Virus record (IMG/VR): IMGVR_UViG_3300031952_000016
Span: 1 to 63,102 of that record
Strand: one strand, 5' to 3'
Source of the DNA: a virus
DNA: 63,102 bases
Made by a program: the position numbers and the translations under genes. Below are positions 2,149 to 61,852 of this stretch, one piece after another (position 1 is the first letter of the stretch; every line of letters begins with the position of its first letter). Under the pieces are notes generated by a model. It was given only the letters and a program-made list of their open reading frames with translations. It ran no database searches and had not been told where the DNA came from.

Positions 2149-2451
2149 ATGAAAGATAAAATTGTACAATCGGTTTTGGAAAAGTACCAACAACGTTCAG
2201 AAGTTGGTCAAGAAAAGTATGGTGTTACCTTAGAGCGTAACGACCTCAACTTCCTGCAATGGTTAAACCATCTGCAAGAAGAATTAATGGATGCAACTCT
2301 GTATGCTGAAAAGCTAATGCTAGAGCTACAAGAAAGCTCTGCATTCCCGGATGGGCACGTTATTTCAAAAGAATCTTGGGATACTGCAGACAAGATAATC
2401 CACGATGGATTTACCTATGTAAGATTTACGGACTTAAAATTTTATAGATGA
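2149..2451 (+). CDS. MazG-like helical protein (possible nucleotide pyrophosphohydrolase)
   Basis: I start at the ATG at 2149, because the longer frame from 2101 runs through the previous gene. The product is 100 residues. The segment GQEKYGVTLERNDLNFLQWL followed by HLQEELMDATLYAEKL resembles the helical EExxD-type core of small phage MazG/dATP-dGTP diphosphohydrolase-like proteins, which hydrolyse nucleoside triphosphates. Only part of that motif set is visible, so the assignment is tentative. It overlaps the next tiny membrane ORF by ATGA. Confidence 0.5.
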   Translation: MKDKIVQSVLEKYQQRSEVGQEKYGVTLERNDLNFLQWLNHLQEELMDATLYAEKLMLELQESSAFPDGHVISKESWDTADKIIHDGFTYVRFTDLKFYR

Positions 2452-2531
2452 AATATAAGTTTTACGGATTCATAGCTTGGATGATTATAATAGTAGTCAT
2501 CTCTTTATCAATATTAATATTAATAAGATAA
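2448..2531 (+). CDS. Tiny single-pass membrane peptide
   Basis: A 27-residue ORF overlapping the previous stop by ATGA. After MKYKFYGFIAW it is a continuous run of I, V, L and S ending IRK-like (LILIR), so one membrane helix is likely. The ATGA coupling supports translation. It is the last gene before the inverted repeat at 2557. Confidence 0.45.
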   Translation: MKYKFYGFIAWMIIIVVISLSILILIR

Positions 2532-2556
2532 TTGTTAATAACATTATTACTAAATT

Positions 2557-2593
2557 GCAAAACTTATGAAAATTATTTGTAGTTTTGCTTTTT
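2557..2593 (+). terminator. Inverted repeat with T-run, possible terminator
   Basis: GCAAAACT at 2557-2564 pairs with AGTTTTGC at 2581-2588 across a 16-base loop and is followed by TTTTT. It would end the 30-2531 transcript. The right arm also holds a promoter-like TAGTTTTG, so the site may serve both roles. Confidence 0.45.
2580..2587 (+). promoter_or_regulatory. Candidate promoter -7 element TAGTTTTG
   Basis: It matches the Bacteroidota -7 consensus TAnnTTTG. A TTG sits 22 bases upstream (2555-2557), near the -33 position. The start of the DnaA-like gene is at 2610. This would launch the replication and recombination operon. Confidence 0.4.
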
Positions 2594-2609
2594 AATTAAA
2601 TCAAATGAA

Positions 2610-2912
2610 ATGAAAGAAGATGTGTTCAATCAGTACGTTGATAGGGTTGTGGACCTATTCAACATAGACAGAGAAGTTCTATTCTCAAAGTCTAAGCAAA
2701 GACATATAGTAGATGCACGACAGTTACTATATTACCTATGTTACAGTAGGAAAATGCAATTAGTTACTATCAAGAAGTTTATGAATGACAGAGGATGTTC
2801 TATCCTCCACAATTCAATCGTTAACGGTGTTAAGAACGTTGAGCTTAAGCTCGAGGAAGACAGAGACTACCAAACCGTTATCAGAGACATAGAGAAAGCA
2901 GTATTTATATAA
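2610..2912 (+). CDS. DnaA domain IV-like DNA-binding protein
   Basis: A 100-residue protein. RHIVDAR at residues 31-37 and SILHNSIVNG at 64-73 recall the two signature helices of DnaA domain IV (the RQ-ARQ-YL helix and the DHSTV-like recognition helix). The AAA+ ATPase part of DnaA is absent. Domain IV binds DnaA boxes at origins, so this could be a phage origin or operator binding protein, or could compete with host DnaA. It is the first gene of the replication operon. A second protein of this kind lies at 11248. Confidence 0.6.
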   Translation: MKEDVFNQYVDRVVDLFNIDREVLFSKSKQRHIVDARQLLYYLCYSRKMQLVTIKKFMNDRGCSILHNSIVNGVKNVELKLEEDRDYQTVIRDIEKAVFI

Positions 2913-2931
2913 TTTAATTTAATCAAATCAA

Positions 2932-3582
2932 ATGGAAAAAACAACATTCGAGAAATTGTCAGCTATCAATATGAACGCTCATACTGAGAAGAAAAGCAAC
3001 CTGACTTACCTTAGTTGGGCGTGGGCGTGGGGAGAGACTAAAAAGACTTGTCCTGATGCCACTTACAAAATTGGAGAGACAGACTATGACGAAGCACTTG
3101 GCTTTATGTGTCATACTACTGTAACAATCGCAGGAGAAACTTTAGAGATGTGGCTACCGGTTATGGATGGAGCCAATAAGTCTATGAAGAAAGTAGCCTA
3201 TACGTATCAAACAAAATACGGAGAGAAGTCAGTAGAGGCTGCAACAACATTCGACATCAACAAGACTATTATGCGTTGCTTGGTTAAGAACCTTGCTATG
3301 TTTGGTATGGGTATCTATATCTACGCAGGAGAGGACTTGCCTGATACTCCGGTAGAGACTACTGCTGTAGCAAAGCCATCAGCAAGTAACCTTAAGAAAG
3401 AGATTGAACTATCTGACCTTAAGAAAGGTACAGATGATTGGGAGAAAGTAGTTAAGTACGTTACAGCCAACAAAGAGTTGGGTATTGAGAAGATTGGTCA
3501 ACAGTTAACTCGTAAGTACAAAATCAGTCCTGCACTTAAAAAAGAAATCGCTAAAATAGTAACAACCACAAACGTAGAATAA
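2932..3582 (+). CDS. Single-strand annealing recombinase, Sak3-like (DUF1071)
   Basis: The 216-residue product contains the conserved blocks of the Sak3/DUF1071 group: YLSWAWAWGE (residues 26-35), EMWLPVMDGANKSM, and DINKTIMRCLVKNLAMFG followed by GIYIYAGEDLP. Proteins of this family anneal complementary single strands during phage recombination. The C-terminal 70 residues form a lysine-rich tail. It lies directly before an exonuclease gene (1-base gap), with an SSB-like gene next. This gives the classic exonuclease, annealase and SSB trio of a Red-type system. Confidence 0.8.
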   Translation: MEKTTFEKLSAINMNAHTEKKSNLTYLSWAWAWGETKKTCPDATYKIGETDYDEALGFMCHTTVTIAGETLEMWLPVMDGANKSMKKVAYTYQTKYGEKSVEAATTFDINKTIMRCLVKNLAMFGMGIYIYAGEDLPDTPVETTAVAKPSASNLKKEIELSDLKKGTDDWEKVVKYVTANKELGIEKIGQQLTRKYKISPALKKEIAKIVTTTNVE

Positions 3583-3583
3583 T

Positions 3584-4315
3584 ATGCAAGTACTAGAATT
3601 ATTAAAAGACGACAGAGAATACTACTCAGGTATTGGTAAGAATTACCTTTCAAACTCAGACATCGGAACATTGCTAGAGAATCCAAAAGAGTTTGGTAAG
3701 CCTAGAGAAGACAACAAAGCATTTGCAGAAGGCAGATACTTTCATCAGTCAATACTTGAGCCTGAGAAGATTAAAGATGTACCATTCGTTGATGTGAGTA
3801 CTCGGACTACTAAAGAGTACAAAGCATTTTGCGAAGCAAACAACCTACCTTTCTGTTTGCTGAAGAAAGAGATTGACGAGATTAAAGGTCTAGTTAATAT
3901 TATCAATAGTAATATTGTATTCTTTGAGGAGATATACAAGACCGGTAATCAGTTTGAGGTTCCTGCTATTGGAGAGATACAAGGTATGATGTGGAAAGGT
4001 AAGGCAGACATCGTAACAGATGATTGCATCATTGACTTGAAGACCACTAGTGATATACAGAAGTTCAAATGGAACGCAAAGAAGTACAACTATGACTCTC
4101 AGTGCTACATATACCAACACTTATTCGGTAAGCCTCTAGTGTTCTATGTGATTGACAAGGTTACAGGAATCCTAGCGGTGTTCAAGCCTACGCAAGAGTT
4201 TGTAGACGGAGGAGCAGTTAAGGTATCAAGAGCAATCGATATGTACCAAAGATACTTCTCAGAGAATCCATCAGACGACATCGACAACTATTACATTGAC
4301 GAATTTTTATACTAA
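3584..4315 (+). CDS. PD-(D/E)XK exonuclease of the recombination module
   Basis: The 243-residue product opens with YLSNSDIGTLLENPKEF and FAEGRYFHQSILEP, as in RecE/YqaJ-like phage exonucleases. The catalytic signature is GKADIV with D142, then IIDLKTT with D151 and K153, followed by YNYDSQCYIYQHLF. The expected role is 5' to 3' resection of double-strand ends to make substrate for the annealase encoded 1 base upstream. The predicted fold is complete. Its stop is followed within 6 bases by the structured leader of the SSB-like gene. Confidence 0.8.
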   Translation: MQVLELLKDDREYYSGIGKNYLSNSDIGTLLENPKEFGKPREDNKAFAEGRYFHQSILEPEKIKDVPFVDVSTRTTKEYKAFCEANNLPFCLLKKEIDEIKGLVNIINSNIVFFEEIYKTGNQFEVPAIGEIQGMMWKGKADIVTDDCIIDLKTTSDIQKFKWNAKKYNYDSQCYIYQHLFGKPLVFYVIDKVTGILAVFKPTQEFVDGGAVKVSRAIDMYQRYFSENPSDDIDNYYIDEFLY

Positions 4316-4320
4316 CAATA

Positions 4321-4375
4321 AACCAACTATCATCTCAGCCTTAGGGGGTGGTAGTTGGTTCAAATAGACTAAGGC
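4321..4375 (+). promoter_or_regulatory. Possible H-type pseudoknot leader of the SSB-like gene
   Basis: AACCAACTA (4321-4329) pairs with TAGTTGGTT (4352-4360); with two G-U pairs the stem can extend to 14 base pairs (4321-4334 with 4347-4360). The hairpin loop contains GCCTTAG (4338-4344), complementary to CTAAGGC (4369-4375) downstream, giving pseudoknot topology. The ATG is at 4396 after an A-rich unpaired stretch. This geometry resembles the T4 gene 32 leader, where the single-strand binding protein represses its own translation. Folding and binding are inferred only. Confidence 0.5.
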
Positions 4376-4395
4376 AAACTAAAACATTATTTACA

Positions 4396-4701
4396 ATGGC
4401 ACAAGAAGAAAAGATTTTCGCAGACGGTTTCTTATTCAAGAGAAACGAAAAAGCCCCTGACTTCGTAGTAGGGAGAATTAGTATCAAAGTTGATGAAGCA
4501 ATCGCTTTCATTAAACAACACCAAAAGAATGGATGGGTTAACCTTGGGGTTAAGACAGCTCGTAGTGGTAACTACTACATTGACCTTGATACTTTCGAGT
4601 CAAAGAGTCAAGAAGGCGCAGTTGATAAGTACGAGGCTAAAGCAAAAGCTGTCGCTCCTGTAGAAAAAGAAGACGATTATGATGATGATGTTCCTTTTTA
4701 G
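4396..4701 (+). CDS. Single-stranded DNA-binding protein-like
   Basis: I choose the ATG at 4396 because a longer frame from a GTG at 4348 would run through the leader dyad. The product is 101 residues with a compact mixed beta core (IFADGFLFKR, DFVVGRISIKVDEAIAF, GWVNLGVK, NYYIDLDTFE). It ends in an acidic tail DDYDDDVPF, the hallmark C-terminal tip that recruits partner proteins in bacterial SSBs. It lies after the annealase and exonuclease genes, as expected for this role. The size is small, and OB-fold assignment rests on pattern, not alignment. Confidence 0.7.
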   Translation: MAQEEKIFADGFLFKRNEKAPDFVVGRISIKVDEAIAFIKQHQKNGWVNLGVKTARSGNYYIDLDTFESKSQEGAVDKYEAKAKAVAPVEKEDDYDDDVPF

Positions 4702-4725
4702 TAACTAATTTATTATCAGGTAGAT

Positions 4726-4755
4726 AAAGAGGAATATAATCGTTCCTCTTTTTTT
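4726..4755 (+). terminator. Intrinsic terminator after the SSB-like gene
   Basis: AAAGAGGAA (4726-4734) pairs with TTCCTCTTT (4743-4751) around an 8-base loop and runs into TTTTTTT. It separates the recombination trio from the primase gene. Confidence 0.75.
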
Positions 4756-4874
4756 ACCAACAGCTTGTACCGTAAATGACAATAAATTTCCATACTACTA
4801 CTATATAGAATATATATATATTATTTTTTTTTAATTTAATAAAAAGAGAAAATAATTAACATAAAAGACAGTAG

Positions 4875-4932
4875 TATTGATTATCAATAAGTTATAAAAT
4901 AAAAAACGACATAAAATCGACACGAGATGACG
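4875..4932 (+). promoter_or_regulatory. Palindrome and CGACA boxes at the primase start
   Basis: TATTGAT-T-ATCAATA (4875-4889) is a perfect dyad. CGACA follows at 4907-4911 and 4918-4922, and ATGACG at 4927-4932 contains the primase start codon. The boxes are spaced 10-11 bases apart, so they lie on one face of the helix. The same motif, in both orientations, forms the array at 54651-54748. A shared initiator or repressor is a plausible reader. Confidence 0.45.
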
Positions 4933-7353
4933 CATATAATAACAATCTTCCAAAACATAAGGGATACAGACACTCCGTTCTTTAGAGATGTTCACGTTAT
5001 ACTTGAAAGAATAAAGGATGGAGCCGGTGCTACCAAAGACATCGTTAAAAGAATACGACAAGAAAAAAACAAAGCCGAACGAAACGAGATTAAAAAGCTA
5101 CTACCGGCTATTTGCTTTAGTGGTACTTTCAAAAAAAGATTAGACAGTGCACTCGAACAACATTCAGGACTTATATGTTTGGACTTTGATGGATATGCAA
5201 AGCAAAAAGAATTACTAAAAGACAAAGAGACTATATCTAAAAACAAATATGCTTTCGCTGTCTTTATTTCCCCTTCAGGAAATGGATTAAAAGTATTAGT
5301 TAAGATACCGGCTGACGAAGAGAATCACGTAAACTACTTCAATAGCCTAGAAAAGCATTTTAATAGCCCTTATTTCGACAAAACTAGTAAAAACCTTAGT
5401 CGAGTATGCTACGAGTCTTATGACCCTTTAATCAACGTTAATTTAAACTCCTCTGTTTGGGATGTGATTGATGAACCTGAATATACGGAAGTCAATAAGG
5501 TAAGAGACCAAGCTACTATACCAATTACAGATGAGAATAAGATTGTAGAGATATTAGTTAGGTGGTGGGAGAAGAAGTATCCGATGCAAGAAGGACAACG
5601 CAATCACAATGCTTACATACTTGCGATGGCTTTCAATGACTTCGGTGTAAATAAAAGTCTTGCGGCATACATCTTAAATCAGTTCTCTACTTCTGACTTT
5701 ACAATAGCAGAGATAGCTACCACGATTGACTCAGCTTATAAGCATACTGCTAACTTCGGTACTAAGTACTACGAAGACGAGGAGCGAATCAATCAGATAC
5801 GTGCTAAGTTAAGACGTGGTGTATCAAAAAAGGAGGTTCGCTACCAACTACAGGATTCCAATTTGGATAGCGAGACTATCGAATCGGTTCTAAATAAAAT
5901 CGAGGATGAAAATTATAAGATGACCTTTTGGACCAAGAACGATAAAGGAGCCATAAAGATTGAGCACATACTGTTCAAGCAATTCTTAGAGGATTCAGGA
6001 TTCTATAAGTTCTGTCCTGAGGGAAGTCGCAACTATGTATTCGTAAAGGTTACGAACAACCTTATAGACCATACATCAGAGAAAGAGATTAAAGACTTTG
6101 TGCTTACTCACTTACTAGAGTTAGATGACTATAGCGTTTACAATTACTTTGCCGACAACACGAGATTCTTTAGAGATGATTTCCTTTCAATGATTTCAAC
6201 TATTGAGATATACTTTATAGCAGATAGCAAAGATTCAGCTTACTTGTATTATAAGAACTGTGCTGTAAAGATTACGAAGGATAGCATACTTACTATTGAC
6301 TATTTGGATTTAGGAGGCTACGTTTGGAATGACCACGTTATCGATAGGAACTTCAACATCTGTGATGTTACCGGAGCCTGTGATTTCAAGCAATTCATAT
6401 CTAATATCAATGGAGGAGATGAGAATAGAATCAGAACTATGGAGAGTACACTAGGCTTCCTGCAACACGGATATAAAAATCTATCGTTCTGTCCTGCGGT
6501 AATCTTAAACGATGAAGTTATCAGCGACAATCCTGAGGGAGGAACTGGTAAGGGATTGGTTATGAACGCCCTTAGCAATATGAAGAAACTCGTAGTGATT
6601 GACGGTAAGTCTTTCAACTTTGAGAAGTCTTTCCCTTATCAATTAGTATCGGCAGACACGCAAATACTTTGCTTTGATGATGTCAAGAAACATTTTGACT
6701 TCGAGAGACTGTTCAGTGTGATTACAGAGGGTCTAACTCTTGAGAAGAAAAACAAAGATGCTATCAAGATTCCTTTCAATAAATCTCCTAAGGTTACAAT
6801 AACGACTAACTATGCTATAAAAGGCGCAGGGAACTCATTTGCGAGACGAAAATGGGAATTAGAACTACATCAGTATTACACGATGAATTTCACTCCTAGA
6901 GACGATTTTGGCAAGATGATGTTTGGAGATTGGAATGACGATGAGTGGTGTGAGTTTGATAATTATATGATTGGGTGTTTGAAATACTACCTATCAAGCG
7001 GATTGGTTAAGTCTAAGTTTGTGAACTTAAAGATTCGTCAGTTATCGGCAGAGACCTGCCACGAGTTTATCGAATGGTGTGGGCTCGTTGATATTAATGA
7101 TAAAAGCAATGTTCTTCCTGTAAACACTAGATTATACAAGAATGAATTATATAGTATATTTGTTGATGAATATCCGGACTACGGAGCTCGAGGTAAGATG
7201 ACAATTAGTAGAACTAAGTTTTACAAATGGTTAGTAGCTTACGCTATCTACAAAGAAGGCATTATGCCTGAGGAAGATAGAGACCACATTGGTAGATGGA
7301 TAATCATAAAAAAGAGAGCAGATAACGATACGCAAATACAACTCAACCAATGA
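4927..7353 (+). CDS. Primase-helicase (VirE_N-like domain plus SF3-type helicase)
   Basis: The 808-residue product has an N-terminal region of the VirE_N/BT4734 type (LDFDGY near residues 85-90, then FISPSGNGLKVLVKI), typical of Bacteroidota phage primases. A helical linker follows, then a C-terminal P-loop ATPase with Walker A GGTGKG (538-543) and Walker B ILCFDD (580-585), followed by TITTNYAI and FARRKWELE, as in superfamily 3 phage helicases. It would prime and unwind at the origin. No DNA polymerase gene was seen, so host polymerase probably completes replication. It overlaps the next gene by ATGA. Confidence 0.8.
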   Translation: MTHIITIFQNIRDTDTPFFRDVHVILERIKDGAGATKDIVKRIRQEKNKAERNEIKKLLPAICFSGTFKKRLDSALEQHSGLICLDFDGYAKQKELLKDKETISKNKYAFAVFISPSGNGLKVLVKIPADEENHVNYFNSLEKHFNSPYFDKTSKNLSRVCYESYDPLINVNLNSSVWDVIDEPEYTEVNKVRDQATIPITDENKIVEILVRWWEKKYPMQEGQRNHNAYILAMAFNDFGVNKSLAAYILNQFSTSDFTIAEIATTIDSAYKHTANFGTKYYEDEERINQIRAKLRRGVSKKEVRYQLQDSNLDSETIESVLNKIEDENYKMTFWTKNDKGAIKIEHILFKQFLEDSGFYKFCPEGSRNYVFVKVTNNLIDHTSEKEIKDFVLTHLLELDDYSVYNYFADNTRFFRDDFLSMISTIEIYFIADSKDSAYLYYKNCAVKITKDSILTIDYLDLGGYVWNDHVIDRNFNICDVTGACDFKQFISNINGGDENRIRTMESTLGFLQHGYKNLSFCPAVILNDEVISDNPEGGTGKGLVMNALSNMKKLVVIDGKSFNFEKSFPYQLVSADTQILCFDDVKKHFDFERLFSVITEGLTLEKKNKDAIKIPFNKSPKVTITTNYAIKGAGNSFARRKWELELHQYYTMNFTPRDDFGKMMFGDWNDDEWCEFDNYMIGCLKYYLSSGLVKSKFVNLKIRQLSAETCHEFIEWCGLVDINDKSNVLPVNTRLYKNELYSIFVDEYPDYGARGKMTISRTKFYKWLVAYAIYKEGIMPEEDRDHIGRWIIIKKRADNDTQIQLNQ

Positions 7354-7871: not shown

Positions 7872-8042
7872 ATGGAAAATGTTTATACACAAGAAGAAGT
7901 ATTAAGAAACATTAATATTTTTCAAAAGAAAGAAGAAGAGCTTGTAAATAAAAGAAAAGAGCTCAACAAAGAATTGTTGCAGACAAGAAAGCAAAAAGAG
8001 TATTGGAAAGAGCTAGACCTTAGTCAATTAAAATTATTATGA
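7872..8042 (+). CDS. Small coiled-coil protein
   Basis: A 56-residue, highly charged helical protein (KKEEELVNKRKELNKELL) that would form a coiled coil. It starts 2 bases after the preceding stop and overlaps the next tiny ORF by ATGA, so expression from the same transcript is likely. No family recognised. Confidence 0.55.
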   Translation: MENVYTQEEVLRNINIFQKKEEELVNKRKELNKELLQTRKQKEYWKELDLSQLKLL

Positions 8043-11247: not shown

Positions 11248-11736
11248 ATGCACGAAAAAGAAATAGAAGAACTCAAAAGAATTGTCAATGATATTTTTTT
11301 AGTAAATTTGGATTCAAAAAGCAGAGAAAGAAATATTGTGGATGCTAGAAAAGTTTACTCTAAGATGTTAAGAGACAGTGGATTTAGTTATGAAGCAATA
11401 GGGAAGACCATAGGTAAATGCCACGCTACGGTTGTGCATTACATTAATAATGTAGAATACATATTATCTTACGATAAGATACTTAGAGATAAGTACATTG
11501 CCTGTAAGAATGATTTTATTAAAAAAAGAGAATCCATTTCAGAACAGATTAAAAAAGATGCAGATGTATATGTAACGGTAATAAGATTGGCAAATGAATT
11601 ACAAGAAGCTATATCGGATAAAAATAGAGTTCTAAATGACTTTGTTGACTATCTTGAAAATTTTCAAAAAACAGCAGGTCATTTCCCAAACGCTTTAGAT
11701 TTAAGAAGACATATACTACCATTGTTTACCAAATAA
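11248..11736 (+). CDS. Second DnaA domain IV-like DNA-binding protein
   Basis: A 162-residue protein. RNIVDAR at 28-34 and GKCHATVVHYIN at 56-67 form the helix pair of a DnaA domain IV-like fold, as in the gene at 2610, but the rest differs and is extended by a charged helical C-terminal half. No ATPase motif is present. The two related binders bracket the replication operon. Either could be the reader of the ATGTCG boxes. Confidence 0.6.
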   Translation: MHEKEIEELKRIVNDIFLVNLDSKSRERNIVDARKVYSKMLRDSGFSYEAIGKTIGKCHATVVHYINNVEYILSYDKILRDKYIACKNDFIKKRESISEQIKKDADVYVTVIRLANELQEAISDKNRVLNDFVDYLENFQKTAGHFPNALDLRRHILPLFTK

Positions 11737-12317: not shown

Positions 12318-15300
12318 TTATTTGTATGTTTTTGACTTTCTTACAACTGTTCCATCAGAATTATATCTTTCGCTACTACTACCATAAGAACTACCGTAAG
12401 AACTACCATAAGAACTTTTATCAGAAGTAGATTTTCTGTAATTGTACTCCTTTTCTTCTTTTTTTGTAATTTCTTCATTCATTTTCTCATTAGCCTGCTT
12501 TTCATACTTGTGGTCTTTATACCATTGTGAACGAGGTCCGAAATTTTTATTCCAAAGTCTTCTGTTGTACTTTTTTAAATCTTCTTCATTGTCATAAGAC
12601 TCGTTAGTAATTGGGTTGATAAGTAATTGACTCTTAGCTTCTTTCTCTGCTTTTCTTTCTGCAGTTAATTGAGCTTTTTCTTCAGGACTTTCAGTCAATA
12701 GTTCATTTCTTTTTGTTTCAAGAGCTTCTTCCAACTTAGGATTCGAGTTTTTTTCTAATAGCTTATCAAGAACTTCTACTTTTTCATTTAATTTTTCATC
12801 TACTTTTTGTTCAATTGCAGGAGGATTTTTTAAATCTTTATAGATATTATTCATCACTGTTTTTCTGATGTCTTTGTATAAAGGTATGAATCCTGCATTG
12901 CCTAACACCTCTAAAGGTATTCTAATGTTTTTAACATCTTCCTGTCTCTGAATTGCATCAGCTTCTTTTTTATCTCCGCCACTATATGTCTTTATAATCA
13001 AATTAGTGGTTTTAATTGCAGGACCAAAAGCTCCTGAAAAACTTTCTGCATAGTCATATAATCCTGTTTGCTTTCCTTTTTTCTCTATTGGAATAGATGT
13101 GTACTGTATGGCATCTTTGTATGGGTCATAAGGTCCTTCTCTTAAATCTTGAAGATACTCTTCATTAAACATCTCTAGTCCTTTATTTATAAACATTTTA
13201 GTTGCGTTACCAAAATCTCTATTAAAAAGTAATGAAGTAAAAGTAGATGTCAATGCTTGACCAATAGACTTGTCTAATGCTTTTTCTTCCTCTTCATCAT
13301 CGTCTCCAAATAATAACCCTATTAATCCTGAGCCTAACGCTTTTGAAAGTAAACTATATACAGTCATTCTAGTTGTAACAGCTCCTAGTAATGCAATTCC
13401 TTGTTTCTTACTTAAAGAACCATTACCCATAGCAGCCATTATACCTGTTCTTGCAGAAGTGTATTCGTAAATCAAGAACCTAGTCATAAAGTTATTGAAG
13501 TTATTAAATCCTTTAATAAAGTTAGATTGATTCGGTTTTGATGTTCCTTTTAAAATACCTGTAAAAGTATTATTACTAGCTCCTGTAATTACAGACCTTT
13601 CGTCTGCCGCATCTTTAGCCTTGTCAATAGCCTCTATATTCTGATTCATATATGCTTCATCATTAGCCGCTATCTTTTCAAAATCAATATCTTGACCTGT
13701 TTGTTTCTTAAAATTAGCAGCAAATGCTCCAAACCATATAGGTCTCATTATAGCTTTATCAGGTGTAGTTATTAATACATCAGCCGTTAATTCAACAGCA
13801 TTTTTATATTTCTTACCTGTTAAGTTCCAAATTTGTTGAGCTTTATTTACAACTTTGTTTTTAGCTTTCCCTCCTCTTATTCCATTTGCCTGACTTAAAA
13901 TATTAGTATCAATAAGCCTGCCTGATAAAGTATCAGAAGGAAAAATTCTATTTATCTCCTTGCTATTTACGTTATGCATTATTAATGGAGCGTCAGGAGA
14001 CATAAGTGTAGAAGTGTATTTTAAACCTTCAGCAAATGTTGTAGGGTCGCTTATTATAACAAAACCAACGTTCGATAAAAACTCTGCAGCAAATCTTCCT
14101 GTTCCTGCAAGAATAGAACGATAACCTTGTTTTTTTATATAGTCAATAACATCATCTCCTATTGATGTCTCCATATAACTATTTTGAACTAATCCTTCAA
14201 CTGCTTCTTCAAAAGAATTTTTTATAGCATTTATAATTTTTCTTTTGTCTTTGCTAATTCTTCCTTGATTTTCTAGTTCTGTTATAGCTTTGTTTATAGT
14301 TTTACGAGCAGTACGAATAGGCTCTGTTAAATTATAATCCATTAATACAAACTTAGCTCCCTTGTTAACAGATGCAAATACATCAAAATTAAGAGGAGAT
14401 ACTTTACCTGTTCTTTCTATTAATGATTTTGCTTTTGTAGATGGCTTCAATGAATTGTTGTACTGGTCAGCAAAAGACTCTCCTGATTGCAAATCATTAG
14501 GCTTGGTATCGCTAAGCACGTTTAAGTGAATATAGTTGCTTAAAGGGTTTATTCTTTGACCTCTAATAACTGAAGCAGTGTACTCAGCTTTTTCTGTCAA
14601 AGACTGATTTACTTCTTGAATTGTTTTTATACCTGCTTTTTCTGCACTATTAAAAGAATTGTATAGTTCATCAATATCTATCTCTCCATTAGGCGCAAAT
14701 TTGTCTAATATCTCTTGAAGCATATTGGCATCTCGTTCTTCAAATTGAGACTTTCCTTCATCAATATGTTTTATTGTTGCTTTTAAAAACTCAGCCGCAG
14801 GATTTACTTGTTTGCTATCAGGATTAGAATTGTGCTCAAGTTGAACCATATAAGTCATCATCTTAAACTTAGCCATTAATGTGGCATCAGGATTAAGACT
14901 GTGTGATTTTGCTATTTTTTCTTCCGCATTGGATAGCTTTAATTGAATAGCTTTTAATTCAGCTGTAAACTTAGCCTCTCCTTCAGCCGCTTTTTCTAAT
15001 ATAGAATTAAATATATCTTTCGTTTTAAAGTCTGAAAATATTTGGTCTATATTAAATAACGGATTTCTTCTTATCATCTCAAGAACATAATCTTTTTTTG
15101 TAATAACAGATTTTACCCGAGCATATATTTTTGATAAAGGAAGTAATACTGCTCTTTTTACAGAAGATACTAATGATTTTTTATTATTATTTGAGTTCAA
15201 TTCTTCTATAATCAATTGAGCAGAGTGAGCAAAATATCCATTATTGATATTATCAATGACCTTCAACAAATTCTTTAGTTGAGCATTTGTCAATTCTTTT

Positions 15301-51553: not shown

Positions 51554-51994
51554 ATGAAATCAGATAGAGATGACTACCTAAAATATTACAGGGTAATACG
51601 ACAGTTTATAAAAATTAAATACGAGATAACTCAGGCTGACTTAGATATGCTTTTGTTCTTGTATTCAGAGAAGTACTTCGGAAGGGATAAGTTTGATGAA
51701 TATACCAAACTGCTAGGATGGGATGTAGTGCGCTTTTTTAGACTCCAACAAGAAGGTTGGATTGTCAAATTTAGAAATCGAGTTGGTAAGAGAAAAGCTT
51801 TGTACAAACTTACCATAAAATCTGAACGTATGATTCAGTCGATATATAGAAAACTAAGTGGGGAAGAAATCCCCACTAGTTTATCCCAAAATAAAATGTT
51901 TTTAAAAAATGCATCATACCTAGATAAAGCGTATCGTGATATGATTATTCAGATGAATGAAGTTATAAGACAACAACGACATCTCTCTCAGTAA
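51554..51994 (+). CDS. Putative winged-helix regulator
   Basis: A 146-residue basic protein that looks like a winged-helix domain: TQADLDMLLFLYSEKYFGRD, LLGWDVVRFFRLQQEGWIVK and a turn FRNRVGKRKALYKLT. It is transcribed away from the late operon across overlapping promoters and converges with the groES gene by 32 bases. A switch-like control role is likely from context, but DNA binding is not shown. Confidence 0.55.
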   Translation: MKSDRDDYLKYYRVIRQFIKIKYEITQADLDMLLFLYSEKYFGRDKFDEYTKLLGWDVVRFFRLQQEGWIVKFRNRVGKRKALYKLTIKSERMIQSIYRKLSGEEIPTSLSQNKMFLKNASYLDKAYRDMIIQMNEVIRQQRHLSQ

Positions 51995-52226
51995 TAATCG
52001 TGTACTGCTTTTCATCAATTAGCATTGTAAATCCGTGTGCCTTGTCATAGTAGATGTCATCATCTTTCTTTATGTTAGGCACATCTGTTCCTGCTTCAAT
52101 AACTAAACCACGTTTGTATCGCATTTGGTTTACATCTTCTCCCGATAGAATCAATCCTGACTCTGTCTTCAACTCTTCATCAACGGTCTTGATGACTATG
52201 TATTTTCCTATGGGCTTTAATGACAT
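51963..52226 (-). CDS. groES: GroES-like co-chaperonin
   Basis: The 87-residue product has the GroES beta-barrel plan: IGKYIVIKTVDEELKTESGL with the mobile loop (residues 19-33), RGLVIEAGTDVPNIKKDDDI and a final EKQYTIITERDVVVVL. It caps the phage GroEL made upstream on the same strand. A homing endonuclease gene lies between them and overlaps the start of this gene by 10 bases. Confidence 0.8.
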   Translation of the reverse strand: MSLKPIGKYIVIKTVDEELKTESGLILSGEDVNQMRYKRGLVIEAGTDVPNIKKDDDIYYDKAHGFTMLIDEKQYTIITERDVVVVL

Positions 52227-52897
52227 AATTTTTTTATTTTTAATTGTTTATTTAATATTTTACTGTTTACTTTTTTAGACCTTCCGTATAGGTTATTTGA
52301 TATTGCTGTCTCTAAACATCCTAATTTTTTTGCTGCTTCTCTTACAGAAGAAAAATTTTCAATAAATTCAGAAGTATAATAGTCATAACAAGAAATAGGA
52401 ACGGATGTTATTATTTTTGACTTATTTGACAATCTCATTTTAGCTTTAACTTGCTCAGGTATCTTTGTTCCTGTTCTTGCTTTGGCTATATTTTCTCTAT
52501 GCTCTTTAGATTTTATCTTTCCTTTATGAGATAAAGATATTTTATTTTTCCATTCTTCAGTTCTTATAACAGATTTTAAAGATTCTATTTTCTTTTTTAA
52601 AATGCTAAAAGAAACTGCTTCGACAGTAATTCCTCCTTTTGTTTGATTAATAAGTTGGCCATTTTTTAAATCTATTCTTCCGTATTTAGTAATAAGTTCT
52701 ATCTCTAACTCAAATGCTTGCTCTTGAGTTAATCCATCTTTATATATTTCAATTATATAACCATATTTACTTACTACTCTATTCCACCATTCAGGTCTTT
52801 GCTTACAATAGGCTCTTTTTAAATCCCCCATACCTACATAGAAAACAGAATTATCTGTTTTCTTTTTATGTAGATATACAACTTTGTTATTTTTCAT
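52217..52897 (-). CDS. GIY-YIG homing endonuclease with NUMOD modules
   Basis: The 226-residue product begins with a GIY-YIG-like nuclease domain (VVYLH at 6-10, FYVG at 19-22, R28 in the active site region, E63-E65). A NUMOD3-like segment follows (KNKISLSHKGKIKSKEHREN), then a NUMOD1-like helix-turn-helix near residues 165-210 (FSSVREAAKKLGCLETAISN). Free-standing enzymes of this kind cut near their own insertion site to spread. It interrupts the groEL-groES pair. Confidence 0.8.
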   Translation of the reverse strand: MKNNKVVYLHKKKTDNSVFYVGMGDLKRAYCKQRPEWWNRVVSKYGYIIEIYKDGLTQEQAFELEIELITKYGRIDLKNGQLINQTKGGITVEAVSFSILKKKIESLKSVIRTEEWKNKISLSHKGKIKSKEHRENIAKARTGTKIPEQVKAKMRLSNKSKIITSVPISCYDYYTSEFIENFSSVREAAKKLGCLETAISNNLYGRSKKVNSKILNKQLKIKKLCH

Positions 52898-52946: not shown

Positions 52947-54554
52947 TTACTCGTTTGATTGTTCGTAGCTTCTCGCCATTGTGATTATCGCATCTGTGCT
53001 TAGGATTGTTACCGCTACACTCACTGCGTTTTGCAATGCTGAACGGGTTACTTTCAACGGGTCTATTACTCCCATTTTTACCAAGTCTCCAAACTCTCTT
53101 GTTTTTAGATTGTACCCGTGACCCTGAGCTACACCATCTGAATAGATGTCTGATGCTCTTAGTCCTGCGTTAGCAAGTATCTGTAAGAACGGAGCCATAA
53201 GTGCTACGCTTAAAATATTTATTGCCGCATTGTACTCCTCACTCTTGTTATCGTCTAAATGTAACGCTGCACTCTCCTCAAGTAATGCTTTCCCTGCTCC
53301 GGGCACGATACCTTCCTCTAGTGCTGACCTTACCGCACATACCGCATCATCAACTCTATCAAATAACTCTTTCTGCTCTAGGTCTGTCTGACCTCCTACG
53401 AATATCACTCCGATACCTCCTGTAAGGGAAGCGATACGCTCTAAGATAAAGTCTTTCTCGTGTTTCTTAGTTGCGTTCTTATGCGCATCCCACAACTGAG
53501 ACACTCTTTCGTCAATTGCTTTTTGGTCTAACCTCAAGTCTGACTTGATGATAACAGTTTTGTCCTTGCTCACAATTATCTTAGCTGCGTGCCCTAGGTC
53601 TCCAAAGTTGATGATACTCAAATCATCTCCCGTTTTCTCGCTGAAGTAAGTCGCTCCAACGCTAATGGCAATGTCATACATCAACTCGTGTTGCTTGTAC
53701 CCAAAACTAGGTGGTGCAACTGCACATACCTTGATGTTCCCCTTTACAACATTTGCCGCCAAACTATTGATTAGGTTCTGACCACAAGGAGATATTATCA
53801 ATAACTTTTTACCCTCACTAACAATTGGCTTAAGCACGTTCTCAATCTGAAGGATATTAGTAATCTCCATATCAGCAACCAACACCATAACATCCTCAAA
53901 TATGCACTCATCTTTTTTCTGCTCGTTTATAAACATCGGACTCAAATACCCTCTGTCAAATTTCAACCCTAAAGTGGTCTCCGCATACGTCTCGTCAGTC
54001 TGACTTTTCTCCACCGTTACAATACCGGTCTTACCAACATCTTTGTACACCTCAGAGATTATCTTCCCTATCTCTCTATCGTTGTTTGCAGATATGCTCG
54101 CTACATCCACCAACATAGAGCTAGTAACTCTCTTGCTCTTTTTGCGCAACCTATCCACCACCTTGTCGCTTATCTCCACCATACTCCTTAAGACCTCAGT
54201 CCTGTTTAGATTTGGCGTAATATGCTCAAGTCCTCCCAATACCAACCCCTCTGTAAGCACAATAGCCGTAGTGGTCCCATCTCCTGCGGCAGTAGCGGTA
54301 CGCTCAGCAGCCTCCTTCATCATCTTAACCGCAAGGTTCTCCGAAGGGTCTAACAAGTCAATAGCCTTAGCCACTGTTACACCATCTTTAGTAACCGTGA
54401 TGCCGTGAGTGTGTGTAGGGCTCTCTATCAAGACCGGATTACCTCCCGGACCTAACGTAGCTTTTACAGCTTTTGACATCTTTACCACTCCATTTACTAA
54501 TTTTTTCCTTCCTGTGTCCCCAAAACACAAATCTTTAGGCGAATACTCTAGCAT
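52947..54554 (-). CDS. groEL: GroEL-like chaperonin
   Basis: The 535-residue product is a full-length chaperonin: VKATLGPGGNPVLIE, AGDGTTTA (about 91-98, ATP site), the apical region with TNILQIENVLKPI, and the C-terminal ATP-site block AVRSALEEGIVPGAGKALLE. It ends ARSYEQSNE, without the GGM tail of host GroEL. GC-richer codons than the flanks suggest a separate history. It probably folds the capsid or other large virion proteins with the phage GroES. Confidence 0.9.
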   Translation of the reverse strand: MLEYSPKDLCFGDTGRKKLVNGVVKMSKAVKATLGPGGNPVLIESPTHTHGITVTKDGVTVAKAIDLLDPSENLAVKMMKEAAERTATAAGDGTTTAIVLTEGLVLGGLEHITPNLNRTEVLRSMVEISDKVVDRLRKKSKRVTSSMLVDVASISANNDREIGKIISEVYKDVGKTGIVTVEKSQTDETYAETTLGLKFDRGYLSPMFINEQKKDECIFEDVMVLVADMEITNILQIENVLKPIVSEGKKLLIISPCGQNLINSLAANVVKGNIKVCAVAPPSFGYKQHELMYDIAISVGATYFSEKTGDDLSIINFGDLGHAAKIIVSKDKTVIIKSDLRLDQKAIDERVSQLWDAHKNATKKHEKDFILERIASLTGGIGVIFVGGQTDLEQKELFDRVDDAVCAVRSALEEGIVPGAGKALLEESAALHLDDNKSEEYNAAINILSVALMAPFLQILANAGLRASDIYSDGVAQGHGYNLKTREFGDLVKMGVIDPLKVTRSALQNAVSVAVTILSTDAIITMARSYEQSNE

Positions 54555-54580: not shown

Positions 54581-54588
54581 CAAATATA
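54581..54588 (-). promoter_or_regulatory. Candidate -7 element TATATTTG before groEL
   Basis: Minus-strand TATATTTGC matches TAnnTTTG and is the same octamer, followed by C, as at the late promoter (51532). It lies 26 bases upstream of the GroEL ATG. Confidence 0.5.
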
Positions 54589-54650: not shown

Positions 54651-54748
54651 TGTGTCGTTTATTGGGTTATGTCGGTTTGTATGTCGGTTTTATGACGATT
54701 TATGACGAAAAATGTCGAGAAATGTCGGTTAATGTCGAAAAAATGTCG
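54651..54748 (+). repeat. Nine ATGTCG/ATGACG-type boxes, about 10-bp phased
   Basis: TG(T/A)CG cores occur at 54653, 54670, 54682, 54693, 54703, 54713, 54723, 54733 and 54744. Spacing is 10-12 bases for seven of the steps, so most boxes face the same side of the helix. Confidence 0.75.
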
Positions 54749-54979
54749 CAGGAAGTCCAGTAAACATTGAAAAAACGACAAAAATGCAATTTTATTTTCT
54801 CTACCTCTCTCTCAGAAAATATATACTCTTCTTCTTTTTTTTATTATTTCATTCTCTTCTTTTTTTCGACATTATCGACATTAAAAGAATAAAGTATTAA
54901 TAATCAAATAGTTAGAAAAATTGAGTCGTCGCAAAAACGTCGTAAAATATAACCGATTGTGTCGATTATAAGTAAAAAG

Positions 54980-55012
54980 AAACCCTATAGTTCGTATAGG
55001 GCTTTTTTTACT
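54980..55012 (-). terminator. Bidirectional intrinsic terminator
   Basis: CCCTATA and TATAGGG form a 7-bp stem around GTTCG. T-rich runs flank it on both strands (GCTTTTTTT on plus, GGGTTTCTTTTT on minus). It ends the 55033-55266 gene and could also end a plus-strand RNA. Confidence 0.75.
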
Positions 55013-55287: not shown

Positions 55288-55295
55288 CAAAGATA
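55288..55295 (-). promoter_or_regulatory. Candidate -7 element TATCTTTG
   Basis: Minus-strand TATCTTTG matches TAnnTTTG and lies 21 bases upstream of the ATG at 55266. Confidence 0.45.
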
Positions 55296-55833
55296 ATAAT
55301 TTTTAGATAGTAGTAGTGATTGGGCTATATGTAGGTTTGACGACAGCGCGCCCCAAACGAAAACGACTTTTTTTTCGCATAGTGGGGTACTGTTTTGTAG
55401 GATTTTCCCTACATTTTTTCAGCTTTTTGCAAGCTACTTTGTAGTCCTTCTCCTACAAATACGCTATACGCTTGTACTAATTCTCCTACATTTTGCACTA
55501 GTTTCTTACTACATTTTTTATCGTTGCTATCCTGCTAATTGCTTGACTGTCAGTGTGTTATGAATGTAAGAATCCACTTACAAACGCTTACAATAGGCTA
55601 TTTTAGGGCTTGACTTAAAACCTCTTTTGTAGTCCTAATCCTATTAAAACTTAAAAATATTAATTCCATAACTACCTGATTTTAAACAACTTACATTTAA
55701 TATCTCAAAAAAAACTAAATTTTAACATTTTAAATATTGTATTGTAAAACTATTGTATTAATATTGCTAAAGATTTGCAAAGGGAATTAACCATATTAAC
55801 CACAAATCAAAACAACGATTAAAATTTAATATT
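55296..55833. other. Non-coding region with TGTAG/CTACA boxes
   Basis: No gene seen. TTTGTAG or CCTACA boxes recur in both orientations from about 55330 to 55630, several as dyads (TGTAGG-N6-CCTACA and TTTGTAG-N7-CCTACAAA). The last 200 bases are very AT-rich and lead into the 55834 gene, with a repeated ATTAACC just before it. Confidence 0.55.
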
Positions 55834-56112
55834 ATGGGAACTAAAGTAACAATTCAGAATGTAAGAAACGTAAACAATGCTAAAAAAGAGCAAAACAAAA
55901 CAATAGGCGGTATTATATCCAACATCTTAACGCTAGACAAAAACAAGCTAGAGAATAAAGAAGATAAAAGTATAATTGAATATTTAGTTAAGGCAAAAAA
56001 AGATAGTAACGTATATAAAAGATTATGCGAAAATGTTAAGCTCCACTACAAAACTAATCTACCTAATCAATACGCCGTATTACAAGCCGTTAAGGTTATA
56101 TTAAACAAGTAG
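55834..56112 (+). CDS. Small basic protein within the repeat region
   Basis: A 92-residue lysine- and asparagine-rich protein (MGTKVTIQNVRNVNNAKKEQ) with a helical C-terminal half (NQYAVLQAVKVILNK). It is isolated between two box-rich non-coding regions, so it may be a binder of those boxes or an RNA-linked protein. No domain was recognised. Confidence 0.65.
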   Translation: MGTKVTIQNVRNVNNAKKEQNKTIGGIISNILTLDKNKLENKEDKSIIEYLVKAKKDSNVYKRLCENVKLHYKTNLPNQYAVLQAVKVILNK

Positions 56113-56244
56113 GAATTATCTTACATTTTCAGGGTGCCTACTTTGTTGAGAATAGACAAAGGTAAAAATCGAATTTTTGCACTCTACAAAAGTGGTTTTA
56201 TTGTGTTACACTAGATTAACACAAAATTTATAAAAGTATCTTAT

Positions 56245-56318
56245 TTTGTAGCTCCTAGAGTGCAATTTTAGAAACGTAAACTTTTATAAATAGTTGTATT
56301 TGTAGCTCCTAGAGTGCA
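56245..56318 (+). repeat. 20-bp direct repeat, two copies
   Basis: TTTGTAGCTCCTAGAGTGCA occurs at 56245-56264 and 56299-56318 without mismatch. An inverted shorter copy lacking CTCCTAG (TGCACTCTACAAA) lies at 56178-56190. Confidence 0.85.
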
Positions 56319-56480
56319 TTTAATAACTGTTATTTGAAATTTCGATATATTACAAAGGTGCAAAAGTGTACTAAAATAACCGTATTGTTATACGTTTAAA
56401 ATTAGTACTCGATTAGCTAACAAAGTACATATCGATATGTAAAAAAATGCATTAAACAGTATAAAAAAACTGTTTACAAT

Positions 56481-56513
56481 TGTAACACTACAACGTTACA
56501 AACGTGGTTTTTT
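56481..56513 (+). terminator. Terminator-like hairpin with an alternative stem
   Basis: ACGTT (56493-56497) pairs with AACGT (56501-56505), followed by GG and six T bases. An overlapping alternative, TGTAAC (56481-56486) with GTTACA (56495-56500), would prevent that stem, as in attenuators. Confidence 0.4.
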
Positions 56514-56679
56514 GTGTGTTTTTTATCCATAGGACTGTACGAGGCAAAAGTATGAAGACTCGCCTAAACTAAGTTAATGACTTAATGATACAGTACACAA
56601 AGGTACTAAAGACAAGCTATGTCTAGTAGTGGGCGACCTTTGTAGTAAAAAAGCCAAACGTTGAACGGGGCGAACGGTA

Positions 56680-56707
56680 TTTACAAATGTAAATTTACAA
56701 ATGTAAA
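56680..56707 (+). repeat. Tandem 14-bp dyads
   Basis: TTTACAAATGTAAA occurs twice head to tail (56680-56693 and 56694-56707). Each copy has TTTACA/TGTAAA arms, so it may be a paired operator or two small hairpins. Confidence 0.8.
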
Positions 56708-56722
56708 CAACAATATTAAACT

Positions 56723-56752
56723 ATTCCACTTCAAACGAGGTGGAATTTTTAT
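56723..56752 (+). terminator. Intrinsic terminator, plus strand
   Basis: ATTCCAC (56723-56729) pairs with GTGGAAT (56740-56746) and continues into TTTTT. No protein gene lies within 600 bases upstream, so it most simply ends a non-coding RNA. Confidence 0.75.
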
Positions 56753-56755
56753 ATA

Positions 56756-56802
56756 GCATAGTCATTGGAATGATTAATTAAGGTTCGATTCCTTACTATG
56801 CG
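56756..56802 (+). ncRNA. Minimal tRNA-like fold (acceptor stem plus T arm)
   Basis: GCATAGT (56756-56762) pairs fully with ACTATGC (56795-56801), followed by one unpaired G. Directly inside lies a T-arm, AAGG-TTCGATT-CCTT (56780-56794). The 17 bases between hold only CATT/AATG with a 2-base loop. The D arm and anticodon arm are missing. It could be a tRNA remnant or a tRNA mimic. Confidence 0.5.
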
Positions 56803-56823
56803 CTAATTTAAAACCAAATAAAG

Positions 56824-57006
56824 ATGAGAACACGAATGAACACAAAGGTTGATGTTACAAATGTAATACAACAAATTGAGATTGAGATTAGAGCCTATTC
56901 AAAAGCGGTACGTACTATAATGCTACTTAAGAAGGTGGAGTACAAGGACGCAAAAAGAATTTTGGAAATGAGATTAACTGAACGTTTAATATTTAAAACA
57001 GCATAA
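56824..57006 (+). CDS. Small paralogue with RLTERL motif, copy 1
   Basis: A 60-residue helical protein with VEYKDAKRILEMRLTERLIF. The gene at 57644 shares this block almost fully. It is the first gene after the tRNA-like fold, 21 bases on. Function unknown. Confidence 0.65.
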   Translation: MRTRMNTKVDVTNVIQQIEIEIRAYSKAVRTIMLLKKVEYKDAKRILEMRLTERLIFKTA

Positions 57007-59078: not shown

Positions 59079-60284
59079 ATGAGATTATCAGTATTAAGAA
59101 CGCTTTACGAAGTGTTCAACGATGACAGAGAGAAAGTACAACGTGCAATCTCTAGTTTAGAAAATGGGGATGTATCTATCCAAGAGATAGAGTCCGGAGA
59201 ATACTTCTCCCACGAAGATGGCTACTATTCCTGTGAGGACTATGTAACTACCGAAAATGGAGATGTACTACATAGAGACGATGCTTTCTATTGTAATGGC
59301 TATGAAGAGTATTATCACGAGGATGATATGGTAACTGTGTACGAGGATGGAGACACGAACTATTACAGCCGACAATGGATAGAGAACAGGACTGATGACT
59401 ATGCTTTTTATGAGGGCGAGTGGTATGACAACAGTGCACAACAAAGATACTGTCTTGTGTGGGCACAAGATATGAACCAATTAATCCACGAGGACTGTGC
59501 GTACTACCACGATGGAGATGGTTGGTACTCGTATGAGCCTGACGAGACTGAGGAGTATGTTCGTGGCTATCACAATGGTAGCTATCAGTCCATTAACTTT
59601 GACAACAAGTCTAAGTATCGTATCGGCTACGAGATTGAGAAGGAGGACTCAGAGGTATTGGAGAGTATCAACATCCAAGACTTCGAGAGTAATACTGATT
59701 ACAAGTGGCGTAAAGAAAAAGATGGCTCTCTCGATGATGATTCAGGCTATGAACTTATCAGTCCTACCTTTGAGTTTAACATCGACAAGATATTTGAGCA
59801 TATTGAGAGTAATGATGTATTAGTAGAGCATATCAATGCAAAGTACAGTACAAGTTGTGGTGGACACATTCATCTATCAGAGAAGAACCTTAATGGAGAG
59901 CAGTTGTTCGAGAAGATTAAAGGGTACACACCTCTGTTGTATGCCTTGTACTACGGCAGGGTAGACAAGAACTTCTGCAAAGGTAAAGCCAATAAAGACC
60001 TAGCCTATGAGAATGAGAAGTATCAGGCTATCAAGATACACCACGATAGGGTAGAGTTTCGTATCATCAGTGCGGTTATCAATGTTAAGACTCTCAAGTG
60101 GAGAACAAAGTTATTGATGATGATTTTGCAGAACCCTACCCACGATGTCATCAGAGCGTACTACAACGTGGATACTAAGTTCACAAAGTTACTCAAGCAG
60201 ACTTATACAGACAGCAAGTTAGTTGACTTGAAGGAACGCTTTATAAAATTTACAAAACAATTTGAAGGAATAGATATTAAATAA
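59079..60284 (+). CDS. Amidoligase-family enzyme
   Basis: The 401-residue product has an N-terminal part with repeated Y/C/D-rich hairpins (SCEDYVTTENGDVLHRDDAF, YCNGYEEYYHEDDMV), which look like LIM-like or treble-clef-like modules. From about residue 185 it is amidoligase-like: YRIGYEIEKE, DGSLDDDSGYELISP and SCGGHIHLS (H262-H264 region) form the metal and ATP-binding strands of a glutamine-synthetase-like fold. Such phage enzymes are predicted to form peptide-like bonds on proteins. A glutamine amidotransferase gene follows. Confidence 0.75.
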   Translation: MRLSVLRTLYEVFNDDREKVQRAISSLENGDVSIQEIESGEYFSHEDGYYSCEDYVTTENGDVLHRDDAFYCNGYEEYYHEDDMVTVYEDGDTNYYSRQWIENRTDDYAFYEGEWYDNSAQQRYCLVWAQDMNQLIHEDCAYYHDGDGWYSYEPDETEEYVRGYHNGSYQSINFDNKSKYRIGYEIEKEDSEVLESINIQDFESNTDYKWRKEKDGSLDDDSGYELISPTFEFNIDKIFEHIESNDVLVEHINAKYSTSCGGHIHLSEKNLNGEQLFEKIKGYTPLLYALYYGRVDKNFCKGKANKDLAYENEKYQAIKIHHDRVEFRIISAVINVKTLKWRTKLLMMILQNPTHDVIRAYYNVDTKFTKLLKQTYTDSKLVDLKERFIKFTKQFEGIDIK

Positions 60285-60303
60285 CAATTAAACAATTAAC
60301 ATT

Positions 60304-61113
60304 ATGTGCATAGCAATTTTAAACACGAAAAAAGCAGGTAGATTACCTAAGAATCAAATCAAAAACTCTTGGGATAACAATGATATGGGAGCAGGTCTCC
60401 TATGGAACAAAGACGGTAAGTTAAATGTATTCAAGTCGTATGACTATGATGACTACATAGACAAGTACAATGCCCTTAGAGATGACAATACCATCAACAG
60501 TATAGTGTTACATTTCAGGATAGCCACTAGTGGTTACAATGGAGAGCATAACCTTCATCCCTTTCTTGTCAATGACAACGTAGGATTTGTACACAACGGA
60601 GTCATTAGTGGACTAGGTAACAAGACCTTCTCAGACACGTATGAATTTAATGATATGCTTAAAAAGTTTAAGCACGATTTCTTATCTTGCGATATGAGTA
60701 AGTTCTTCATATCAGAGTACATAGGGTACAGCAAGCTAGTGTTCTTAGATAACAAAGACAAGCATACCATTATCAATGAGGAGTTAGGTAAGTGGTCCAA
60801 TGGTAATTGGTACTCCAATGATTCCTACAAAGAGTACAAGCCCTATGTTTATTATGGGAATCAAAAGGTTGCTAAGACGGATGTTGCAGGCAGTAAGACC
60901 TACCCTCACTATGATTACAGCAAAGATGCGTGGGATGATTTAGACGAGGGAATAGAGTATGACGAGTGGGATGTGTATGACTACCTATGTAGCGTGTACG
61001 GACTAAACCCTGAGGCAGACGATTCAATAGATGAGTTAGAGACGTATATGACGCTGAACAACGTAGACAACATCATAGATTTGTACAAAATCATAGGCGG
61101 GGAAATGGAATAA
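60304..61113 (+). CDS. Class II glutamine amidotransferase-like protein
   Basis: The 269-residue product starts MCIAIL, placing the catalytic cysteine at position 2, as in N-terminal nucleophile amidotransferases. LHFRIATSGY, then NLHPFL and GFVHNGVISG, are the glutamine-site blocks. It would release ammonia from glutamine, presumably for the amidoligase upstream. Its leader repeats 18 bases (TAAACAATTAACATTATG) found before the amidoligase gene. The C-terminal third is acidic and unique. Confidence 0.8.
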   Translation: MCIAILNTKKAGRLPKNQIKNSWDNNDMGAGLLWNKDGKLNVFKSYDYDDYIDKYNALRDDNTINSIVLHFRIATSGYNGEHNLHPFLVNDNVGFVHNGVISGLGNKTFSDTYEFNDMLKKFKHDFLSCDMSKFFISEYIGYSKLVFLDNKDKHTIINEELGKWSNGNWYSNDSYKEYKPYVYYGNQKVAKTDVAGSKTYPHYDYSKDAWDDLDEGIEYDEWDVYDYLCSVYGLNPEADDSIDELETYMTLNNVDNIIDLYKIIGGEME

Positions 61114-61758: not shown

Positions 61759-61832
61759 GGGGGATTAGCTCAATTGGTAGAGCCGTGAGCATAGGCATAA
61801 CGAGGTTACAGGTTCGAGTCCTGTATTCCCCA
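61759..61832 (+). tRNA. tRNA-like gene with abnormal anticodon arm
   Basis: Acceptor GGGGGAT (61759-61765) pairs with ATTCCCC (61825-61831; one G-U). The D arm is GCTC-AATTGGTA-GAGC, and the T arm ACAGG-TTCGAGT-CCTGT (61808-61824) is perfect, with discriminator A and no encoded CCA. The region between the D and T arms is one base too long and has no normal 5-bp, 7-base-loop anticodon arm. The best fit is CGTGA/TAACG with one mismatch and a 9-base loop. No anticodon can be assigned. It may be degenerate or specialised. Confidence 0.55.
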
Positions 61833-61852
61833 CTAATTTTAAATTTAATCAA

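Follow-up and report, generated by a model that had tools for sequence, protein, structure and literature searches.

Upstream of the GroEL gene of a virus record lies a tightly phased cluster of short TGWCG boxes, which raises the question of whether this DNA serves as a replication origin, as a plasmid-like centromere, or in some other role. The record, 63,102 bases long and analysed here in full as "the window", also contains terminase, portal and GroES genes. The original prediction described nine TG(T/A)CG boxes within 98 bp, followed by inverted CGACA boxes and an AT/TC-rich stretch. The features in question are as follows.

52947-54554, minus strand: phage GroEL gene (phrog_5725, 1e-129)
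54581-54588, minus strand: -7-like promoter box of GroEL, TATATTTG, which matches TAnnTTTG
54653-54748, plus strand: phased array of nine TGWCG boxes, with steps of 10-12 bp save the first (17 bp)

The description holds on every point. On the plus strand the boxes start at 54653, 54670, 54682, 54693, 54703, 54713, 54723, 54733 and 54744, giving steps of 17, 12, 11, 10, 10, 10, 10 and 11 bp in order, seven of the eight within 10-12 bp as claimed. This is far above chance: dinucleotide shuffles placed at most three boxes in 98 bp when the whole window was shuffled (n=200) and at most four when the region was (n=2000), against nine observed, and the phased run of eight compares with shuffle maxima of three and two, respectively. 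Beyond the array, inverted CGACA boxes are present at 54776, 54867 and 54876, a T/C- and AT-rich stretch spans 54796-54866, and a further TGTCG box occurs on the plus strand at 54960. The next densest clusters in the window reach four boxes per 200 bp, at 19530 and at 4907, the latter within the second element described below.

Conservation of the box spacing in relatives, which had been proposed as a check, gave a divided answer. Phased runs of at least three boxes occur in 13 of 75 homologous regions and runs of at least five in only five (the window, L006, L007, L008 and L015), whereas spacing within an adjoining element is mostly kept. The conserved unit is thus not the array but this neighbour, at 54777-54967, which has a second copy at about 4760-4935; both had been overlooked. 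We refer to them as the G element (upstream of GroEL) and the P element (upstream of the primase-helicase gene). The array itself, located between the G element and the GroEL promoter, is best read as initiator boxes that have multiplied in one lineage, bordering a conserved element.

54777-54967, minus strand: G element, consisting of box pair, IHF-like site, box pair and AT-purine tract (nhmmer E=1.9e-39, with the window copy itself part of the model)
54796-54866, no strand assigned: AT-rich tract of the G element, T/C-rich on the plus strand and purine-rich on the minus strand
54867-54880, minus strand: inner TGTCG boxes of the G element, paired at a 9-bp step
54902-54914, plus strand: match to the IHF consensus in the G element
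54960-54964, plus strand: outer TGTCG box of the G element
54975-55009, minus strand: terminator-like inverted repeat followed by a minus-strand T run, ending the small gene before the element

A GroEL-based search yielded 80 related loci, from which a profile of the G element was built using 65 distinct copies. Intergenic and about 190 bp long, the element precedes phage GroEL in each of the 76 regions of sufficient length, most of which were also in the model. It contains, in order, CGACAT, a pair of TGTCG-type boxes mostly 10-12 bp apart, and TAACT(A/T)ATTGATTATTAATA, which includes the IHF consensus as generally known. Next come a second box pair, whose step is 9 bp in 71 of 71 measured copies, an AT/purine tract that is poor in C and includes TATATATA, and outer CGACA boxes. 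In the window, the outer boxes of the G element are degenerate. Pairwise identity is 0.60-0.81 for the element DNA, compared with 0.37-0.62 for four-fold sites of GroEL (2741 pairs, not independent of one another). When viral contigs were searched with the core pattern, GroEL lay directly downstream in 51 of 52 loci; the one exception, L134, looks like a chance match and was set aside. TAnnTTTG, the Bacteroidetes promoter consensus, is present no more than 80 nt from GroEL in 73 of 78 regions (against a background of 5.9%), and the last TGWCR pair of the element lies 167-733 bp away. Thus, GroEL has a promoter box of its own, from which the G element is separate. As for a role as RNA, the element has no Rfam match in the window, where the sole match is a tRNA.

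The core-pattern search left the synteny with GroEL unbroken, and it is the P copy that breaks it.

4760-4935, minus strand: P element, the second copy, directly before the primase-helicase gene (G-only nhmmer model)
4907-4932, no strand assigned: P-element boxes CGACA, CGACA and TGACG, lying where the primase gene begins
4927-7353, plus strand: primase-helicase (phrog_28855; BT4734-like N-terminal domain; DUF5906 below cut-off)

A profile built from G copies only matches the window at 4943-4867 (E=4.9e-9). The inner P-element boxes of the window are degenerate. The same model matches 71 of 72 regions upstream of primase, and all 71 matches have the expected orientation. In the remaining locus, L141, the P element is kept in the same orientation about 1.8 kb upstream of primase (E=7.9e-19), with small ORFs intervening. 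TAnnTTTG was seen upstream of primase in 1 of 70 regions.

A sequence-only model of both copies locates the two on the same strand in each of 33 near-complete records, some of which supplied training rows; the second copy in G033 is weak (1.4e-4), and there are also a few weak matches on the opposite strand. In 24 of these records the directly repeated copies are 8.7-15.9 kb apart. GroEL and primase are encoded in opposing directions; with respect to one of the two genes the element is therefore reversed, and this favours a DNA transaction over promoter architecture. Gene order is common to the group, however, so the orientation counts reflect a few inherited events rather than 33 independent ones.

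Spacing within the elements is also constrained. From the IHF-like site to the inner box pair, the distance in G copies is 24 bp (10 of 71) or 34 bp (61 of 71), and in P copies 23 bp (20 of 65), 24 bp (44 of 65) or 33 bp (1 of 65), five G and seven P copies being unmeasurable. From the outer box pair to the IHF-like site it is 17-18 bp in 68 of the 69 G copies with a value; among P copies it is 17-18 bp in 39, 7 bp in 15 and another value in 10, and some of these odd P distances are probably mis-assigned boxes. The main large changes thus amount to about one helical turn, in line with what a stereospecific complex would predict. Against such a reading, only 56 of 76 G regions and 28 of 72 P regions match the strict IHF consensus; the window contains 13 such matches, of which two fall inside the elements (at 4882 and 54902).

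Both elements contain DNA that is predicted from nearest-neighbour energies to open readily.

4802-4901, no strand assigned: the 100 bp of lowest stability in the entire window, a candidate unwinding tract

By the same measure, the corresponding stretch of the G element, 54819-54918, ranks within the 15 least stable separate sites in the window. Among relatives, the least stable 100 bp of the locus falls in the P region in 53 of 58 cases and in the G region in 33 of 64. A control with random windows gave 1.15 of 58; part of this signal may reflect AT-rich intergenic DNA generally. Cumulative GC skew, which had been proposed as a check around 54.7 kb, reaches its minimum nearby, at 55816, and its maximum at 12334. 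The minimum coincides, however, with a gene-strand switch (the gene arms run apart near 55.5 kb and meet near 12.3 kb), and the sign of the skew is unchanged at the P element. As skew switches with gene strand and is confounded by transcription, it was dropped as a decisive test for an origin.

Which protein might bind the boxes? Three candidates are encoded in the window.

2610-2912, plus strand: DnaA1, a free-standing DnaA domain IV and candidate box binder (PF08299, 7.4e-9)
11248-11736, plus strand: DnaA2, a second protein with a DnaA domain-IV helix-turn-helix (PF08299, 3e-8)
51554-51994, plus strand: winged-helix-like putative regulator, a rival binder (phrog_17028, 3.5e-12; phrog_12817, 7e-4)

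At least one PF08299 match is present in 30 of 30 records, above cut-off in 26. In its structure model (pLDDT 94.7), the entire DnaA1 protein is a DnaA domain IV, and its ten best PDB matches are all DnaA (TM 0.73-0.81 by query length, E 1e-3 to 8e-2), including 1J1V and 3PVP, which contain DNA. No AAA+ part was seen in the DnaA domain-IV proteins of the phage. The recognition helix of DnaA1 departs from the Asp-His pair of a canonical TTATNCACA-box binder: the His is kept in at least 90% of the proteins, and the Asp position is occupied by L in the window and by K, Q, A, S or other residues in relatives. The box TGTCGATAA differs by a single base from the familiar DnaA box TGTGGATAA, at what we take to be the position read by the Asp-His part of the helix, and the sole canonical TTATNCACA in the window, at 7883, is in neither element. 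The one-base change and the lost Asp would fit a shifted specificity, which is a matter of consistency and not of proof. Helix residues of DnaA1 and box variants showed no clear covariation when judged by eye, and DnaA1 was not found on the partial contigs L218 and L219. DnaA domain-IV proteins are the best candidate binders, and the link between the boxes and DnaA1 is circumstantial. In DnaA2 the helix reads KDHATI in many relatives and KCHATV in the window, with Cys in place of the Asp of the pair; the specificity of DnaA2 may differ within the group. A further feature of the DnaA1 proteins is a C-terminal tail under strong conservation, ending up as AVFI in most of them, which may be an interaction motif.

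Taken together, these observations suggest that the G and P elements are probably paired homologous replication-initiation sites, with the array as the expanded edge of one of them. Each site could serve as scaffold for a DNA-protein complex, in which the phage initiator, most likely DnaA1 with its recognition helix lacking the Asp of the Asp-His pair, would bind paired TGTCG-type boxes flanking a bend at the IHF-like site. With the boxes held on defined helix faces, such a complex would strain the adjacent AT tract until it opened, and the primase-helicase, encoded next to the more meltable copy, would load at the opened site. The P element (about 4.76-4.94 kb) would be the likelier site of unwinding; the G element with its array could serve as another origin, or as a partner site, titrating initiator or looping to P. 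The sequences show the element, its duplication, conservation, spacing and meltability, and that DnaA-IV proteins are encoded; binding, bending, opening and the choice of the copy that fires are what we infer from this arrangement. The evidence is comparative throughout, and its counts are of sequences rather than of separate evolutionary events. A replication origin had been the original prediction for the array, and that reading survives in part: the phased boxes, the IHF-like site, the meltable tract, the conservation and the proximity of the skew minimum speak for it, but the array is lineage-specific (5 of 75), the conserved unit adjoins it, and the more meltable copy is at 4.8 kb. A broader formulation has, in our estimate, somewhat less than an even chance of being right as a whole: that widespread GroEL phages initiate from a pair of homologous, directly oriented sites, at which a DnaA domain devoid of AAA+ would read TGTCG instead of TGTGG and the primase-helicase would be loaded beside one site, boxes and initiator co-evolving (to TTGGACA in a diverged relative).

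The roles could also be split, with the P element as sole origin and the G element plus array as a site of titration, looping or silencing. Precedents are the crr site of P4 and plasmid control repeats. P is the more meltable copy, in the window and in relatives, and sits beside the primase-helicase gene, while in the window the array adds boxes at G only. The GroEL copy may be a regulatory partner and not an origin. Against this, the meltable tract at G is complete, with the least stable 100 bp of the locus lying there in 33 of 64 cases, and G is nearer the skew minimum. We regard such a division of labour as possible, if somewhat doubtful.

The main alternative to paired initiation sites is a transcription operator, in which the boxes would bind a regulator of the primase and GroEL operons, either DnaA-like or the winged-helix protein encoded at 51554, with the array as an upstream activator or repressor array. 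Both copies do precede key operons and follow a terminator-like repeat, the P-element boxes abut the primase start codon, and many relatives have a winged-helix-like gene next to GroES. Yet the element is reversed relative to one of the two genes, and GroEL has the separate promoter box noted above in 73 of 78 regions, with the element 167-733 bp away. Moreover, L141 and the diverged locus L219 keep the element though small ORFs or an ordinary promoter box precede primase, and a regulator alone leaves the meltable tract unexplained. We therefore consider an operator unlikely.

The two remaining readings fail through missing partners and the variability of the array. Box pairs around an IHF-like site resemble the layouts of attP and cosB, but a recombination or packaging site (attP, cos or pac) is very improbable: a tyrosine integrase domain was found in 0 of 22 records, as the original remark on an absent integrase implied (control positive in 14 of 14 genomes), 24 records carry two directly repeated copies 8.7-15.9 kb apart, and the terminase genes, at 36.5-38.8 kb, are far from both elements. 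A ParR-type centromere for plasmid-like persistence, originally suggested by the 10-12 bp direct repeats in the window, is not supported and very improbable, since runs of at least five boxes are confined to those five regions, a ParA-type ATPase was found in 0 of 22 records, GroEL lies downstream, the boxes recur before primase, and ParR was not recognised among the proteins scanned, some small ORFs falling outside the scan. A ParM/StbA search likewise gave 0 of 22 for StbA, but with a control that was silent too, and is uninformative.

The elements also resemble known systems. Theta origins, as described in passages of PMC5043065, combine several initiator sites, helical phasing and an A+T-rich opening region with help from IHF or HU; the anatomy of the element matches this, which is why we hold paired initiation sites to be most likely. 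In those passages, iteron-type plasmid theta origins and the lambda origin have the helix-phased initiator sites, the adjoining A+T-rich region and IHF/HU in common with the element. Unlike them, the phage has two homologous copies, with box pairs that flank a central IHF-like site, and neither a plasmid Rep nor a lambda O homologue was identified in it. Bacterial oriC with its DnaA boxes, treated in the same source, resembles the elements in its IHF-like site and unwinding tract, and the candidate binder in the phage is of the DnaA domain-IV type; unlike in the oriC system, the phage proteins consist of domain IV, with the AAA+ part not seen. Satellite phage P4 needs separate comment. Its ori1 and crr, with the alpha protein, likewise form a system in which repeats are common to two cis sites lying apart and a primase-helicase takes part; the likeness noted is one of layout, and in the present phage a separate DnaA-IV protein is the probable initiator. 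Both crr and the P4 origin are named in a passage of PMC9942202. Among titles and opening lines of abstracts, a scope that excludes most subscription papers, we found no description of the element.

Individual relatives add to this picture. L219, a contig of a Bacteroidota assembly whose primase is 45% identical, has six TTGGACA boxes in 250 bp and none elsewhere in 10 kb, with 1.0 expected in the whole 10 kb. The layout is kept, with the 9-bp pair step and AATCAAATAGTTAG between the pairs, and a TATATTTG promoter box lies between element and primase. All boxes have thus shifted together to TTGGACA under an unchanged layout. In L218 the boxes are mostly of the YAACA type; this contig, filed under Aliivibrio, carries a P element (2261-2335) and a 68% identical primase (2331-4754), and is probably a mis-binned phage contig. 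A complete annotated relative, Podoviridae sp. ctfjg026 (MW202828.1), called a podovirus, shares with the window its gene order, both elements and two DnaA-annotated proteins, and its listed annotations include no origin or repeat feature. Among cultured relatives, the element was not matched in Elemovirus MT497078, which has GroEL and a primase 41.7% identical in its N-terminal part, or in Muminvirus tooticki NC_048844, which has a DnaA-like protein. Primase relatives occur in phages of Flavobacterium, Polaribacter, Cellulophaga, Maribacter and Bacteroides. Based upon the promoter type, these primase relatives and L219, the host of this GroEL-encoding podovirus probably belongs to the Bacteroidetes.

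If paired initiation sites are the right reading, they provide a concrete origin candidate for a large, mostly uncultured group of GroEL-encoding phages, and predict that a DnaA DNA-binding domain without ATPase can act as phage initiator. The site pair and the concerted change of boxes would offer a natural experiment on the co-evolution of initiator and origin. The target for experiments shifts as well, to 4.8 kb first and not just 54.7 kb.

Several other features of the window deserve mention. It encodes a Sak annealing protein and an exonuclease, and a homing-endonuclease-like gene (52217-52897; phrog_314, 6.5e-19) lies between GroEL and GroES. A long early leader at 55290-56830 is largely non-coding, with one short ORF (55834-56112), repeats resembling TGTAGCTCCTAGAGTGCA near 56250 and near 56300, and, at 56679-56707, a tandem of 14 bp, ATTTACAAATGTAA. 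At 59079-61113, adjacent genes weakly match an amidoligase (phrog_7469; PF12224 below cut-off) and a glutamine aminotransferase family (phrog_4736), a pair that could possibly modify peptide or wall. Finally, a tRNA-Leu gene is found at 61759-61833.
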